Both the position numbers and the translations under genes were made by a program. Under the pieces are notes generated by a model, which worked only from the letters and a program-made list of their open reading frames with translations, did not search any database and was not told the origin of the DNA. 38,591 nt of DNA. Source: a bacterium. Its GTDB lineage: Bacteria; Planctomycetota; UBA1135; GCA-002686595. This document shows, one piece after another, positions 2,895 through 17,752 of this stretch. The stretch's first letter is position 1, and every line of letters starts with the position of its first letter. The stretch lies in NCBI GenBank assembly GCA_030426745.1, contig JAUHYB010000003.1, forward strand, positions 1 to 38,591, read 5' to 3'.

Positions 2895-3332
2895 ATGGCC
2901 GTTGTCATCCGCATGAAGCGCACCGGGCGCCGGAACCGCCCGTGCTACCGCATCTCCGTCGCCGATCGCCGCTTCCCGCGCGACGGGAAGACCCTCGAGA
3001 CGCTCGGTCTGTACGACCCGGTGTCGTCGAACCCCGAGGCGCAGATCCGCATCGACGTCGAGCGCGCGAAGCATTGGATCGCCAACGGCGCGATCCCGAG
3101 CGAGACCGTCGCGTCGATCCTGCGTCGCCAGGGTGCCTTCGAGGGCGCGCCGGAGCGCCAGCCGCGTGACCGCAAGGGTCGCGAGGGCGGCAGCGCGCGC
3201 GGCAACCGCGTCCGCGCCGCGAAGAAGGCGCGCGCCGAGGCCAAGAAGGCCCGCTACGACGAGCGCATCGCCGCGAAGCGCGCCGCCGCCAAGGCCGCGG
3301 CCGCGCCGAGCGACGACGCGGCCGAGGAGTAG
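2895..3332 (+). CDS. rpsP: Small ribosomal subunit protein S16
   Basis: S16 is an rRNA-binding protein of the 30S body. The first 80 residues match the family: MAVVIRMKRTGRR at the start, RISVADRR, LGLYDP and the region IDVERAKHWIANGA. Beyond this core the protein has about 65 extra residues that are basic and Ala/Lys/Arg-rich and end acidic (DDAAEE), so its 145 residues compare with the usual 80-100. The ATG at 2895 gives the canonical N-terminus; no clear Shine-Dalgarno sequence precedes it. In many bacteria rimM, trmD and rplS follow; here a repeat array, a strong hairpin and an unrelated gene follow. Confidence 0.96.
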   Translation: MAVVIRMKRTGRRNRPCYRISVADRRFPRDGKTLETLGLYDPVSSNPEAQIRIDVERAKHWIANGAIPSETVASILRRQGAFEGAPERQPRDRKGREGGSARGNRVRAAKKARAEAKKARYDERIAAKRAAAKAAAAPSDDAAEE

Positions 3333-3360
3333 GCCGCTCCACGACGCGGCCGCGGTCGCG

Positions 3361-3430
3361 TCGACCCGGGACCGCCCCGGCGTGTCGACCCGGGACCGCC
3401 CCGGCGTGTCGACCCGGGACCGCCCCGGCG
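3361..3430. repeat. 24-bp tandem repeat, 3 copies, hairpin-forming
   Basis: The unit TCGACCCGGGACCGCCCCGG plus CGTG begins at 3361, 3385 and 3409; the third copy is 22 bp before it diverges. Each unit contains CCGGG and CCCGG arms around a 5-nt loop and can fold into a small hairpin. The array starts 28 bp after the rpsP stop and runs into the 12-bp stem at 3426-3454. Confidence 0.9.
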
Positions 3431-3454
3431 CGGCGATCCGCGATCGCCGCGCCG
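3426..3454 (+). terminator. Strong hairpin downstream of rpsP
   Basis: A perfect 12-bp inverted repeat, CGGCGCGGCGAT (3426-3437) and ATCGCCGCGCCG (3443-3454), surrounds a 5-nt loop. It follows rpsP and the 24-bp repeats and precedes the next gene by 132 bp. There is no T-tract, so termination would be by a hairpin-only or factor-assisted route; that is inference. Confidence 0.6.
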
Positions 3455-3586
3455 TGGCGCGTCTACGCCGACCGCGGTCCGCACCGACGCGCGGCGGCGA
3501 TCCGCGCGACCCGTCGCGCCCCGCCGCGCGAACGCCCCTCTCCGCGCGCCGCGCCCTCGGCGCGCTCGGCCCCCATCCTCCGCGCC

Positions 3587-4726
3587 ATGGCCACCAAGAA
3601 GTCGGACCGGATCACGAAGTTGCTCGCGGCGGTCCCGCTGAGCTCGCCGATCCCCGAGGTCCTCCCCGACGCGTCGCTGCTCGAGCACGGCATGTACGCC
3701 GTGCTGCTGCGCCACCTCCCCGCGACGAAGGCGAAGTCGTCGCTGAACGCGATGCAGAAGGCGTTCCCCGACTGGAACGAGCTGCGCGTGTCGCAGGCGC
3801 AGGAGATCGCGGACGCGATGACGCCGCGCGGCAAGGGCAAGACCCGCCCGGGCACGCAGCTCTCCGCCGCGCAGGACGTGAAGGAGTACCTCGCGCAGGT
3901 GTTCCAGGAGACCCACGGGCTGGACCTCGAGTTCCTGCGCACCGACCCCGCCGGCGGCGCGAAGCAGCTGGCGAACGTGCCGATCCTGGGCAACGAGCTG
4001 ACCGCCTTCCTGGCGTGGATCGCCGAGGACGGCGCGCTGCCGGTGTCCGGCGGCATGGTGCGCGTGCTCGACCGCATGGGCGCGATGACGCGCACGACGT
4101 CGATGAAGAAGGCGCGCGCCGCGCTGGAGCCGATGGTCCCGGCCAAGGACGGCCTGCGCTTCGGCATGTCGGTCGGCCTCGTCGCCGACCGCTGGTGCGA
4201 CGCGCGCAAGCCGTTGTGCTGGGAGTGCCCGCTCGCGCCCGACTGCCCGATGGGCAAGAAGGTCGTGAAGGACTGGGAGGCGCAGCAGAAGCGCCTGGCC
4301 GTCCAGCGCGCGAAGGAAGAAGCCCGCGCCGAGGCCGCCCGCAAGAAGGAAGAAGCGCGCCTCGCCCGCGAGGCCGAGCGCGAGCGCAAGCGCCTCGAGA
4401 AGGAGGCCGAGAAGGAGCGCAAGCGCGCCGAGCGCGAAGCCGCCGCCGAGGCCCGCCGCAAGGAGGCCGAGAAGCAGAAGGCCGCCGTGGCGAAGAAGAA
4501 GGCCGCCGCGAAGAAGAAGGCCGACGCCGCCAAGAAGAAGGCCGCGGCGAAGAAGAAGGTCGCCGCCAAGAAGACCAAGGTCGCGAAGGCGCGCACGACC
4601 AAGAAGAAGACGACGGCCAAGAAGGCGACCAAGAAGGTCGCGAAGAAGGCCGCCAAGAAGACGACGCGCAAGAAGGCCGCGCGCACGACGAAGAAGCGCG
4701 CGACCAAGACGACGCGCCGTCGCTGA
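3587..4726 (+). CDS. Endonuclease III-like Fe-S protein with histone-H1-like tail
   Basis: Residues 20-225 resemble the HhH-GPD DNA glycosylase family. The [4Fe-4S] cysteines fit the endonuclease III spacing C-X6-C-X2-C-X5-C exactly (Cys204, 211, 214, 220). The helix-hairpin-helix region, normally LPGVGRKTA with the catalytic Lys, reads VPILGNELTA (131-140). The VDTHV segment with the catalytic Asp reads PVSGGMV (152-158). Both catalytic residues therefore seem lost, so the protein may bind DNA without cutting it, or use other residues. Residues 230-379 are a charged helical stretch and then Ala/Lys repeats (AAKKKA type) like histone H1 or HU tails. ATG at 3587 has no clear ribosome site. The fold call is good; activity is unknown. 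Confidence 0.8.
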   Translation: MATKKSDRITKLLAAVPLSSPIPEVLPDASLLEHGMYAVLLRHLPATKAKSSLNAMQKAFPDWNELRVSQAQEIADAMTPRGKGKTRPGTQLSAAQDVKEYLAQVFQETHGLDLEFLRTDPAGGAKQLANVPILGNELTAFLAWIAEDGALPVSGGMVRVLDRMGAMTRTTSMKKARAALEPMVPAKDGLRFGMSVGLVADRWCDARKPLCWECPLAPDCPMGKKVVKDWEAQQKRLAVQRAKEEARAEAARKKEEARLAREAERERKRLEKEAEKERKRAEREAAAEARRKEAEKQKAAVAKKKAAAKKKADAAKKKAAAKKKVAAKKTKVAKARTTKKKTTAKKATKKVAKKAAKKTTRKKAARTTKKRATKTTRRR

Positions 4727-4759: not shown

Positions 4760-5368
4760 GTGGAGCTGATCCTCGCCTCCGCCTCGCCCCGCCGCCGCGA
4801 CCTGCTCGCGGCGGCGGGGTTGCGCTTCCGCGTCGAGCCGTCGGACGCCGACGAGGACCTCGACGCGCCGCTCGACCCGGAGGAGCTGGCCGAGGAGCTC
4901 GCGCGCACCAAGGCGCGCGTCGTCGCGGAGCGGCACCGCGGGGAGGCCGCGCTCGTCATCGGCTCGGACACGGTCGTCGCCGTCGGCGGCGCGGACGGCG
5001 ACCCGGCCCGCGTGCTGGGCAAGCCCGAGGACGAGGCCGAGGCCCGCGCGATGCTCGAGCTCCTGTCGGGCACCCGCCACCGCGTCGTGACCGGCGTGTG
5101 CGTCGTGGACGCCCGCGACGGGTCGGACATCGCGGGGCGCGAGCGCACCTGGGTCACGATGCGGGCGATCACGCCGGCCGAGGTGGACGCCTACGTCGCG
5201 TCCGGCGAGTGGCGCGACAAGGCCGGCGGCTACGCGATCCAGGAGAACGCGGACGCCTTCGTCACGGCGCTGGAGGAGGGCGGCTTCGACAACGTCGTCG
5301 GGCTGCCCGTCGAGCGCACGCTCGCGCTGCTGCGCGAGGCCGGCTGGGACGGCGCGGCGGGGGACTGA
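4760..5368 (+). CDS. maf: Maf-family nucleoside triphosphate pyrophosphatase
   Basis: Maf proteins hydrolyse non-canonical or excess nucleoside triphosphates (dTTP, UTP or modified bases, by subfamily) to monophosphates. The 202-residue product shows the N-terminal signature [10 protein letters not shown] (7-16), [26 protein letters not shown] and the C-terminal KAGGYAIQ, with VGLPV near the end. The start is a GTG at 4760, giving the usual MELILAS N-terminus, 33 bp after the previous stop. Length is typical for the family. The exact substrate class cannot be assigned from the visible motifs. Confidence 0.93.
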
Positions 5369-5843: not shown

Positions 5844-6920
5844 ATGGAGTTCGCCGAGGCGATCGTCGCGAAGCTCGCCGAACGCGCCGCGCGCGCGAGC
5901 GAGCTCGACGAGTTGATGGCGTCACCCGAGGTGCTGACCGACCACAAGCTGGTCGCGCAGTACTCGAAGGAGAAGGGGCAGCTGGCCGAGGCGGTCGAGC
6001 TGCACGAAGAGCTCGAAGCGCTCCTGCAGGAGCGTGAGGAAGCCCTGTTGCTCGCCGAGGACGACGACGCCGACACGGCGGCGTACGCCCGCGAGATCCT
6101 GGAGTCCTACGAGGAGCGCTCGGAGTCGCTGGACGAGCGCATCAAGTCCGCGCTCGTCACGGAGAAGGACGACTTCCGCGACAAGGTCATCGTCGAGGTG
6201 CGCGCCGGCACCGGCGGCGACGAGGCGACGCTGTTCGCCGCGGACCTCTACCGCATGTACAAGCGCTTCGCGGAGTCGCGGCGCTGGAAGCTCGAGGAGC
6301 TCGAGGTCACGAGCAGCGAGGTCGGCGGCTTCAAGGAGATCACCTTCGGCGTCTCCGGCGAGGGCGCGTGGCGCTACCTGCGCTTCGAGTCCGGCGGCCA
6401 CCGCGTCCAGCGCGTGCCCGCGACCGAGACCCAGGGCCGCATCCACACCTCGGCCGCGACCGTCGCGGTGCTGCCCGAGGCCGAGGAGGCGGAGATCGAC
6501 GTCAAGGACGACGACCTGCGCATCGACACGATGCGCGCCGGCGGACCCGGCGGCCAGTCGGTGAACACGACGGCCTCCGCGGTGCGCATCACGCACCTGC
6601 CGACGGACACGGTCGTGATCTGCCAGGACGAGAAGTCCCAGCACAAGAACAAGGCCAAGGCGATGCGCATCCTGCTCTCGCGCCTCCTCGAGGCCGAGCA
6701 GCGCCGCCTGCACGAGGAGCGCGCCGCCCAGCGGAAGAGCCAGGTCGGCACGGGCGACCGCAGCGCCCGCGTGCGCACGTACAACTTCCCCCAGAACCGC
6801 GCCACCGATCACCGGCTGGGAGAGAACTTCTCCCTCGAACAGGTGATCGCTGGCAAGATGGACGCCCTGGTGGAGGCCCTGGACGAGCGGGATCGCGAGG
6901 AACGCATCGCGAACCTGTGA
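5844..6920 (+). CDS. prfA: Peptide chain release factor 1
   Basis: RF1 recognises UAA and UAG in the ribosomal A site and triggers peptidyl-tRNA hydrolysis. The 358-residue product has the codon-recognition PxT motif (PAT, 192-194, in [14 protein letters not shown]), which marks RF1 rather than RF2. It also has the catalytic GGQ (236-238) in [10 protein letters not shown]. The N-terminal part is a charged helical domain. Length and start (ATG at 5844) are normal. No programmed frameshift is present or expected. prmC, whose product methylates the GGQ glutamine, lies downstream but is separated by a membrane-protein gene. Confidence 0.98.
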
Positions 6921-8294: not shown

Positions 8295-9284
8295 GTGCAC
8301 GACGCTCCGCGACCGAACGGCGGCGCCCCGCGACCCGCGCAGACCGCGGGCGGCGGGGCGCCGTCGCGCGCGTCCTCCGGTTCCAGCGCTGCCGGCGGTC
8401 GCCCGCCCGCGCCGCGCACGGCGGGGGAGATGCTCGCGATGGCGCGCGCCTTCCTCGAGCGCAAGGAGCTCGAGGAGGCGCGGCTCGAGGCCGAGCTGCT
8501 CTGCGCCCACGCGCTGGGGCTCGACCGGCTGCGCCTGTTCCTGCAGCTCGAGCGGCCGGTCGAGGGCGTCGAGGTCGACCGCGCGCGCGACCTCCTGGTG
8601 CGCCGCGGCCGCCGCGAGCCCGTCGCGTACATCACCGGCAAGCGCGAGTTCTACGGCCGCGACTTCGCGATCCGGCCGGGCGTGTTGATCCCGCGGCCGG
8701 AGACCGAGCTGCTCGTCGACGTCGCGCGCGAGGCGCTGGACGGCCGCGAGGCGCCGCGCGTCTACGAGCTGGGCTGCGGCAGCGGGTGCATCGCGGTGTC
8801 GATCGCGCTCGAGGTCGCCGGCGCGCGCGTGGTGACCTGCGACCTGTCACCGACCGCCGTGTCGCAGGCGCGCGCGAACGCCGAGGCGCTGGGCGCGGCG
8901 GACGCGGTCGAGGTGCTCGTCGGCGACGGCCTCGAGGTGCTGGCGCAGCGCCGCGCGTCCGACGACGCGCCGCTCGACCTGCTCGTCTCGAACCCGCCCT
9001 ACGTCGACCCGGCGACGCGCGGAACGCTCGCGCCGGAGGTGCGCGACTACGAACCCGAGCTGGCGCTCTACGCCCCGGAGGGCGACGTCGACCACTGGAC
9101 GCGCGCGTTGTGCGCGTTCGCGGCGCGGCACCTGGCGCCGGGCGGCGCGCTGCTCGTCGAGCTGGGCGCCGGCCGCGGCGAGGCCTCGCTCGCCGCCGCC
9201 CGCGAGGCCGGCCTGGACGCCGAGTTGCGCCGCGACCTCGCGCGCATCGACCGGGTGCTCGTCGCGCATCGGCGCGCTGAATGA
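8295..9284 (+). CDS. prmC: Release factor glutamine methyltransferase PrmC
   Basis: PrmC N5-methylates the GGQ glutamine of RF1 and RF2 using S-adenosylmethionine. Visible are the helical N-terminal domain (about 47-105), YITGKREFYG and LIPRPETE typical of the family, SAM motif I ELGCGSGC (158-165) and the substrate-binding NPPY (233-236). The GTG at 8295 is preceded by AGGAGA about nine bases upstream and gives 329 residues; the first 45 are low-complexity. A start at 8430 (ATG after GGGGGAG) would give a more usual length and is a real alternative. The stop codon lies within the first unit of a 25-bp tandem array. Confidence 0.94.
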   Translation: MHDAPRPNGGAPRPAQTAGGGAPSRASSGSSAAGGRPPAPRTAGEMLAMARAFLERKELEEARLEAELLCAHALGLDRLRLFLQLERPVEGVEVDRARDLLVRRGRREPVAYITGKREFYGRDFAIRPGVLIPRPETELLVDVAREALDGREAPRVYELGCGSGCIAVSIALEVAGARVVTCDLSPTAVSQARANAEALGAADAVEVLVGDGLEVLAQRRASDDAPLDLLVSNPPYVDPATRGTLAPEVRDYEPELALYAPEGDVDHWTRALCAFAARHLAPGGALLVELGAGRGEASLAAAREAGLDAELRRDLARIDRVLVAHRRAE

Positions 9285-9363
9285 CACCGCGCGTCGGCGC
9301 GCTGAATGACACCGCGCGTCGGCGCGCTGAGTGACACCGCGCGTCGGCGCGGTGACTGACTCG
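9264..9363. repeat. 25-bp tandem repeat, 4 copies, overlapping the prmC stop
   Basis: Units begin at 9264, 9289, 9314 and 9339; copies 2 and 3 differ by one base, and the first and last are more diverged. The core GCGCG-TCGG-CGCGC can form a hairpin, and each unit carries a TGA after it. The first unit includes the end of prmC, so the array seems to copy the 3' end of that gene. It fills the gap between convergent prmC and the PilZ gene. Confidence 0.9.
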
Positions 9364-9402
9364 GCGCGTAAGCGCGGGCGCACCGCGCGCCGGAAGACCG
9401 GC

Positions 9403-16997: not shown

Positions 16998-17227
16998 CGC
17001 TTCTTGCGCGCGGAACGGCACCGCGCTTCTTGCGCGCGGAACGGCGTCGCGCTGGAAGCGCGCGGAACGGTACCGCGCTGGAAGCGCGCGGAACGGTACC
17101 GCGCTGGAAGCGCGCGGAACGGCACCGCGCTGGAAGCGCGCGGAACGGCGTCGCGCTGGAAGCGCGCAGAACGGTACCGCGCTGGAAGCGCGCAGAACGG
17201 CACCGCGCTGGAAGCGCGCGGAACGGC
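16990..17227. repeat. 26-bp tandem hairpin array, 9 copies
   Basis: The core element recurs at exactly 26-bp steps from 17000 to 17208. The first two copies carry CGCGC-TTCTT-GCGCG; the other seven carry the perfect stem CGCGCT-GGA-AGCGCG. Between cores the spacer reads GGAACGG or AGAACGG with C/T and A/G variation. The array fills the gap between convergent gltA and tRNA-Leu. Each unit can fold on its own on either strand. Confidence 0.95.
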
Positions 17228-17250
17228 GCGCGCTCGCGTCGTGGGCGGGG

Positions 17251-17337
17251 TGGTGGGGAGACCGGGGATCGAACCCGGACGCCCTCGCGGGCTTCGGATT
17301 TTAAGTCCGATGCGTCTGCCAGTTCCGCCATCTCCCC
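17251..17337 (-). tRNA. tRNA-Leu (anticodon UAA), CCA encoded
   Basis: Reading the minus strand from 17337, the 7-bp acceptor stem GGGGAGA pairs with TCTCCCC, followed by discriminator A and an encoded CCA (17253-17251). The anticodon loop CTTAAAA gives UAA, which reads UUA and UUG. A long variable arm (AGCCCGCGAGGGCGT) marks a class II tRNA, and the T arm has GGTTCGATCC. A TAGGAT hexamer at 17379-17384 (minus) may be the -10 box; no clear -35 is seen. Confidence 0.97.
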
Positions 17338-17463
17338 GCGGAGCCCGGGGGCGGGTCGCCCGCGGGCCGGCGCCGGGCATCCTACCGCGCGGCCCCGTCG
17401 CCGTCGCCCGCGTCGTCGCCGGCGTCGTGGTCGCGTCCCGCGTCGGTGGGCGGCCCTGCGACC

Positions 17464-17491
17464 TTGACGCGACCCCGGTGCCGGGTATGCT
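17464..17491 (+). promoter_or_regulatory. Sigma70 promoter for tRNA-Cys
   Basis: TTGACG (17464-17469), a 16-bp spacer and TATGCT (17486-17491) make one of the best housekeeping promoter matches in the window. The tRNA begins 17 bp further on. Confidence 0.75.
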
Positions 17492-17508
17492 CTTCGGTCC
17501 TCACGGAG

Positions 17509-17584
17509 GGCGGCATAGCCAAGTGGCTAAGGCGACGGATTGCAAATCCGTTATTCCCCGGTTCGAGTCCGGGTGCCGCCTCCA
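17509..17584 (+). tRNA. tRNA-Cys (anticodon GCA), CCA encoded
   Basis: The acceptor stem GGCGGCA pairs with TGCCGCC, with discriminator U (the tRNA-Cys identity base) and an encoded CCA at 17582-17584. The anticodon loop TTGCAAA gives GCA. The D arm (AGCCAAGTGGCTAAGGC) and T arm (GGTTCGAGTCC) are regular and the length is 76 nt. Confidence 0.98.
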
Positions 17585-17606
17585 CCTCCGCCCGCCCCGC
17601 TTCGCA

Positions 17607-17673
17607 GGCGGTGATTCCCCGGCGGTGATTCCCCGGCAGTGCCTTCCGGCAGTGCCTTCCGGCGGTGCCTTCC
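17607..17673. repeat. 13-14-bp tandem repeats, 5 copies
   Basis: Two copies of GGCGGTGATTCCCC (17607, 17621) are followed by two of GGCAGTGCCTTCC (17635, 17648) and one of GGCGGTGCCTTCC (17661). They lie between tRNA-Cys and the next gene. The two sub-types look like steps of one drifting array. Confidence 0.85.
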
Positions 17674-17752
17674 GCCGGGGTCGCAGTCGGCGCTCTGCGC
17701 CCGGGGCCGTCGCACGGCGCGTGACGGCGCGCCGCTTCCCTGGAGAGACCGC

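Follow-up and report, generated by a model that had tools for sequence, protein, structure and literature searches.

HhH-GPD proteins bind DNA. In Escherichia coli endonuclease III (EndoIII, Nth), the catalytic residues are Lys120 and Asp138, and in MutY and other monofunctional HhH-GPD glycosylases, which share the Fe-S loop, the Lys is dispensable. The EndoIII-3 protein of Deinococcus radiodurans is reported to have no detectable EndoIII activity, yet it keeps both the catalytic Lys and the catalytic Asp (PMC9268735). Lys/Ala-rich basic tails mark the H1-like nucleoid proteins, and in HupB a basic repeat tail is carried on a folded head (PMC5676037).

The gene described here, designated gene X, lies in a 38,591-nt stretch of planctomycete DNA, which is referred to as the window. 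With EndoIII, its product shares the fold (by Foldseek and by profile comparison), the helical order and, for the protein of the window, the spacing of the Fe-S loop. It differs from EndoIII in having neither of the two catalytic residues nor the base-flipping residues, in its degenerate helix-hairpin-helix (HhH), in a nearly invariant DWNExRV motif and a basic tail, in predicted lobes that do not superpose as one body, and in the lack of the Fe-S site in many of its relatives. The closest solved structure by both sequence and fold is D. radiodurans EndoIII-3 (4uob, 8a5g), but the matched chain has no tail of this kind. As in the monofunctional glycosylases, the Asp is kept in a sub-clade related to X, whereas the X of the window lacks the Asp too, and it scored only 20 bits with the mutY equivalog model TIGR01084 (cut-off 286.5). 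The tail is of the Lys/Ala-rich type of the H1-like nucleoid proteins; compared with HupB, however, the head fold is different, a stalk lies between head and tail, and the neighbouring genes are translation genes. With RimM and RbfA, X shares gene position (after rpsP, or beside rbfA) but not the fold, which is unrelated. No description of the pairing of a dead EndoIII head with a basic tail was found in the open-access literature searched. A preliminary description of the window, made from the sequence alone, had likewise known of no such family, and the family proved to be real. Judged from the sequences compared, most planctomycetes have probably put an old repair fold to a new use.

An EndoIII-related protein in the Planctomycetota

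The open reading frame of gene X spans exactly positions 3587-4726 of the window (forward strand), has an ATG start and encodes 379 amino acids, comprising a degenerate EndoIII head, a charged stalk and an H1-like Lys/Ala tail. The start fits the relatives, whose proteins open with the same (S/T)KKS(D/E) segment. The sole Pfam match was the EndIII_4Fe-2S model PF10576 (21.1 bits; cut-off 20.5), which was also the only recurrent match among 60 relatives; the HhH-GPD model PF00730 gave no match to X in the Pfam scan. With X as the phmmer query, D. radiodurans EndoIII-3 was retrieved at 5e-8, and a profile of the 60 relatives matched EndoIII among the solved chains with E = 2.7e-9 (8a5g). X is related to EndoIII by sequence and by fold. 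Domain scans detected no RimM domain (PF01782 or TIGR02273) in X, and no RNA- or ribosome-binding domain was recognised in it.

An AlphaFold2 model of the head (residues 1-243) had a mean pLDDT of 93.8, and every top PDB fold match of this model in Foldseek was EndoIII or MutY. Superposition on EndoIII structures gave a TM-score of 0.43 and an rmsd of about 9 Å over some 230 columns, and the two lobes of X are therefore predicted to be arranged differently relative to each other than in EndoIII, the fit being one of local structure. The model of a relative lacking the Fe-S cysteines showed the same local-structure fit.

A PF00730 search of the genome containing the window returned only two proteins, and X was not among them. 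This genome encodes a canonical Nth with both Lys and Asp in place (L001) and a protein that we read as AlkA-like (L002). The possibility that X replaces the only Nth of the genome was rejected, as the canonical Nth is also present.

X was present in 35 of the 37 genomes of the taxonomic family of the window, and 55 of the 61 closest genomes contained a match. Across the Planctomycetota a match was obtained in 291 of 294 genomes, a figure that overstates the presence of X because about 44 of the matches were weak (E > 1e-12), leaving about 247 at E <= 1e-12. The weak matches that were examined mostly covered the C-terminal half only, as expected of canonical Nth. In the same search X was apparently absent from one family (f49), and a search of plasmids yielded no relative of the X head. 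In a scan of genome contigs, a single-sequence query found nothing, and an alignment-based query recovered 67 loci. The named matches in this GTDB scan were Planctomycetota, including strains Poly30, Pla86 and Pla163, X carriers for which complete chromosomes have been sequenced.

Conservation in the head

The E. coli Nth reference sequence, which was checked against deposited records, was aligned with X. Lys120 aligns with Glu137 of X, in the degenerate HhH P132-I-L-G-N-E-L-T-A (3980-4006, forward strand), the residue assignment within this hairpin being that of the alignment. Asp138 aligns with Ser154, in PVSGG (4040-4054, forward strand). The preliminary description had read NEL in the Lys region and Ser at the Asp position, correctly in both cases, and had asked whether these changes were conserved in homologues. 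Conservation was counted over 79 non-canonical rows, which represent many families of the phylum, and both residues were found to be lost across the relatives. A Lys occupied the Lys120 position in a single row (L182), in a degenerate context, and was otherwise absent outside canonical Nth copies. Asp was present at the Asp138 position in 20 of the 79 rows and in 3 of the 45 rpsP-linked rows, so that 42 of the latter lacked it. A mostly yebC-linked clade (L155, L158, L160, L175, L176, L178, L183 and L193) has Asp at this position without the Lys; it may comprise still-active monofunctional glycosylases and represent an evolutionary intermediate.

Among the relatives of X, neither the HhH glycines nor the positions used by EndoIII for base flipping (Gln41 and Leu81) were conserved, and no Lys was widely conserved. 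The only widely conserved acidic residues were Asp62, Glu65 and Glu73, in or beside the motif D62-W-N-E-L-R-V68 (3770-3790, forward strand), which is absent from E. coli Nth. Within this motif Asn64 and Arg67 were present in all 79 rows, Glu65 in 96%, Trp63 in 86% and Asp62 in 85%. Across the aligned rows, conservation is shifted from the old EndoIII active site to the new DWNExRV motif.

The [4Fe-4S] loop of X, C204-X6-C211-X2-C214-X5-C220 (4196-4246, forward strand; PF10576 above cut-off), has the exact cysteine spacing of EndoIII, as had been described. A sub-clade within the family of the window (SH-aLRT 99) has no Fe-S cysteines but an unchanged loop length (for example, W-N-D-E-E-N-P-P-F against W-C-D-A-R-K-P-L-C), and its fold was still confidently predicted. 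The cysteines were lost again in other lineages, and a quick tree required 11 changes of Fe-S state, a rough count given some weakly supported branches and a few partly matched proteins. On this sequence distribution, the common function of the X family cannot depend on the cluster, and a universal role as an Fe-S "reader" is unlikely because the cysteines were lost repeatedly. The preliminary description had proposed the Fe-S fold as a reader; this part of it was not supported, since the HhH glycines and flipping positions are not preserved either.

The C-terminal extension

The head is followed by an extension of about 154 residues (about 150 had been estimated beforehand), in which a near-neutral, helix-like stalk precedes a basic segment. 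The stalk (residues 226-300; 4262-4486, forward strand) is composed largely of Glu, Arg, Lys and Ala, has a net charge of +7 and, as far as it was modelled (to residue 242), is helical. The H1-like Lys/Ala/Thr tail (residues 301-379; 4487-4723, forward strand) has a net charge of +38, and that of the head is +5. The relatives have the same design: the first 60 residues of their extensions are near neutral (fractions of Glu 0.21, Arg 0.22 and Lys 0.16), and the last 60 are dominated by Lys (0.37) and Ala (0.28), with little Glu (0.04).

A Lys/Ala tail was present in 67/67 of the X loci recovered from GTDB, which answers the question, raised with the preliminary description, of whether the tail is conserved in homologues. 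Elsewhere in 574 kb there were only two tail-like segments, and one of these lies antisense to gene X. This control, together with the uniformly tailed relatives, led us to reject the tail as a by-product of high G+C content or composition. Lys-rich C-terminal tails on X were also recurrent in many other planctomycete families. In one order-level family (f7; L041, L042, L044, L045, L048 and L049) the Lys-rich arm is N-terminal and the place of the gene in ffh-rpsP-X-maf is unchanged; in another (f8) X has no tail.

Gene order and the absence of RimM

In the window, X is preceded by ffh (SRP54; 878-2485) and, immediately upstream, by rpsP (30S ribosomal protein bS16; 2895-3332). It is followed after a gap of 33 nt by maf (4760-5368) and then by a gene for a prfA/RF-1 type release factor (5844-6920), all on the forward strand. 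The order ffh-rpsP-X-maf-prfA is kept in the taxonomic family of the window. S16 was encoded upstream of X in 65 of the 67 loci, the other two lying at contig ends (fewer than 300 bases from the match), and Maf was encoded downstream in all 60 loci with room for it. No promoter-like site was found near gene X. The bS16 protein of the window (145 amino acids in total) has a Lys/Ala-rich C-terminal extension of its own, and four 24-bp tandem repeats (GTCGACCCGGGACCGCCCCGGCGT; 3360-3456) lie in the 254 nt that separate rpsP from X.

Fifteen distant loci of the same order had the arrangement seen in the family of the window. Among 75 loci outside this family, these 15 included, 38 were rpsP-linked, 10 rbfA-linked and 17 yebC-linked, and 10 had other neighbours, three of the last being canonical-like paralogs. 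The rbfA-linked arrangement is infB-DUF503-rbfA-X-hisG-yebC; elsewhere X lies directly before yebC, and two loci (L171 and L181) combine arrangements, with rpsP-X and yebC further downstream. The YebC protein binds RNA and acts as a translation factor (PMC12234827, PMC11990639). The neighbourhoods of X point more to work on the ribosome or RNA than to the nucleoid.

RimM was searched for in 119 planctomycete genomes. PF01782 matched in none and TIGR02273 in one, with a positive result in each of the ten bacterial control genomes; 114 of the 119 had RbfA. The sole RimM match (L212, in genome G154) is partial; it is close to the end of a contig and has a trmD-like sequence as its neighbour. Either one lineage truly retains RimM or the sequence is a contaminant. 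The order in most bacteria is rpsP-rimM-trmD. In planctomycetes that have X at another place or lack it, trmD came after rpsP with no rimM (L227-L230 and L232, read from ORF sequences). Family f49, where sampled, lacked RimM as well as X, and the presence of X is therefore not strictly coupled to the loss of RimM. In a search for KhpA, only 6 of 14 controls scored above the cut-off.

Possible role of gene X

With somewhat less than even confidence, we interpret X as a nucleic-acid binder without catalytic activity that is linked with ribosome assembly or translation. X is a descendant of EndoIII that has kept the fold and not the glycosylase/lyase residues, and the charged stalk tethers its head to the highly basic H1-like tail. 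The tail might supply non-specific affinity for nucleic acid and the head might dock on a specific partner through the DWNExRV face. This partner would be the ribosome, its rRNA or an intermediate of assembly, so that X would act as an accessory factor in assembly or translation. The proposed site of action is based on genomic context, in that different neighbourhoods place X by 30S-assembly or translation genes. Such evidence is indirect, however, as housekeeping operons acquire unrelated genes, and DNA is what HhH-GPD proteins bind and what bacterial H1-like tails (HupB, PMC5676037) act on. The yebC-adjacent sub-clade has its Asp, and some members of the X family may therefore be catalytic still.

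The main rival, a modified form of the idea in the preliminary description, is a nucleoid or DNA-damage tether, in which the EndoIII head would bind distorted or damaged DNA without cutting it and the H1-like tail would condense or clamp it. This is consistent with the fold of the head, with the tight binding of damaged DNA by D. radiodurans EndoIII-3 despite its undetectable activity (PMC9268735) and with the stabilisation of DNA binding by the basic tail of mycobacterial HupB (PMC5676037), and it stays open because both fold and tail are of types known on DNA. We consider it rather unlikely, as conservation is lacking at the HhH glycines and at the intercalation positions Gln41 and Leu81, Fe-S is lost repeatedly, the tail is absent in f8, and the stable neighbours are translation genes and not DNA-repair or nucleoid genes. 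X might instead still be an enzyme, either a monofunctional glycosylase or one with relocated catalytic residues, and the tail a processivity clamp. The mostly yebC-linked clade, with its Asp and no Lys as in MutY-type monofunctional enzymes, would agree with this, and basic or disordered tails aid lesion search in other glycosylases (PMC9266487). Neither residue is present, however, in the window X or in 42 of the 45 rpsP-linked rows, no Lys is widely conserved and the widely conserved acids are only Asp62, Glu65 and Glu73, which makes an enzymatic role improbable.

A special case of the ribosome-assembly interpretation is that X is a non-orthologous replacement of RimM in 30S head maturation, following the loss of RimM in the phylum. 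X lies directly after rpsP, the usual RimM slot, or after rbfA, whose product is also a 30S assembly factor; nearly all the planctomycetes sampled lack RimM, whereas RbfA is present; and where X has another place or is missing, rpsP is followed by trmD with no rimM. The absence of both X and RimM from f49 argues against such a replacement, and X, which lacks a RimM domain and is not expected to be related in fold, could be an analogue at most; we regard this proposal as unlikely. That a DNA-repair glycosylase became a ribosome-assembly factor, its remodelled head and basic tail acting on pre-30S rRNA and taking over the job of RimM at least in part, is likewise a long shot.

X would be an instance, spanning a phylum, of a repair-enzyme fold put to non-enzymatic use. 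A family in which Fe-S was lost several times and a new surface motif was kept unchanged offers a natural test of the purpose of the Fe-S cluster in EndoIII. The question is also raised of how 30S maturation proceeds in planctomycetes without RimM.

Repeats and tRNA genes in the window

An Rfam search of the whole window detected two tRNAs only, encoded on opposite strands at 17254-17337 (reverse) and 17509-17581 (forward). They lie in a region (17006-17674) containing a 26-bp repeat array of 8.8 copies, followed by the two tRNA genes and two shorter arrays. A further tandem repeat of 25 bp (4.6 copies, 91% matches) was found at 9263-9376.
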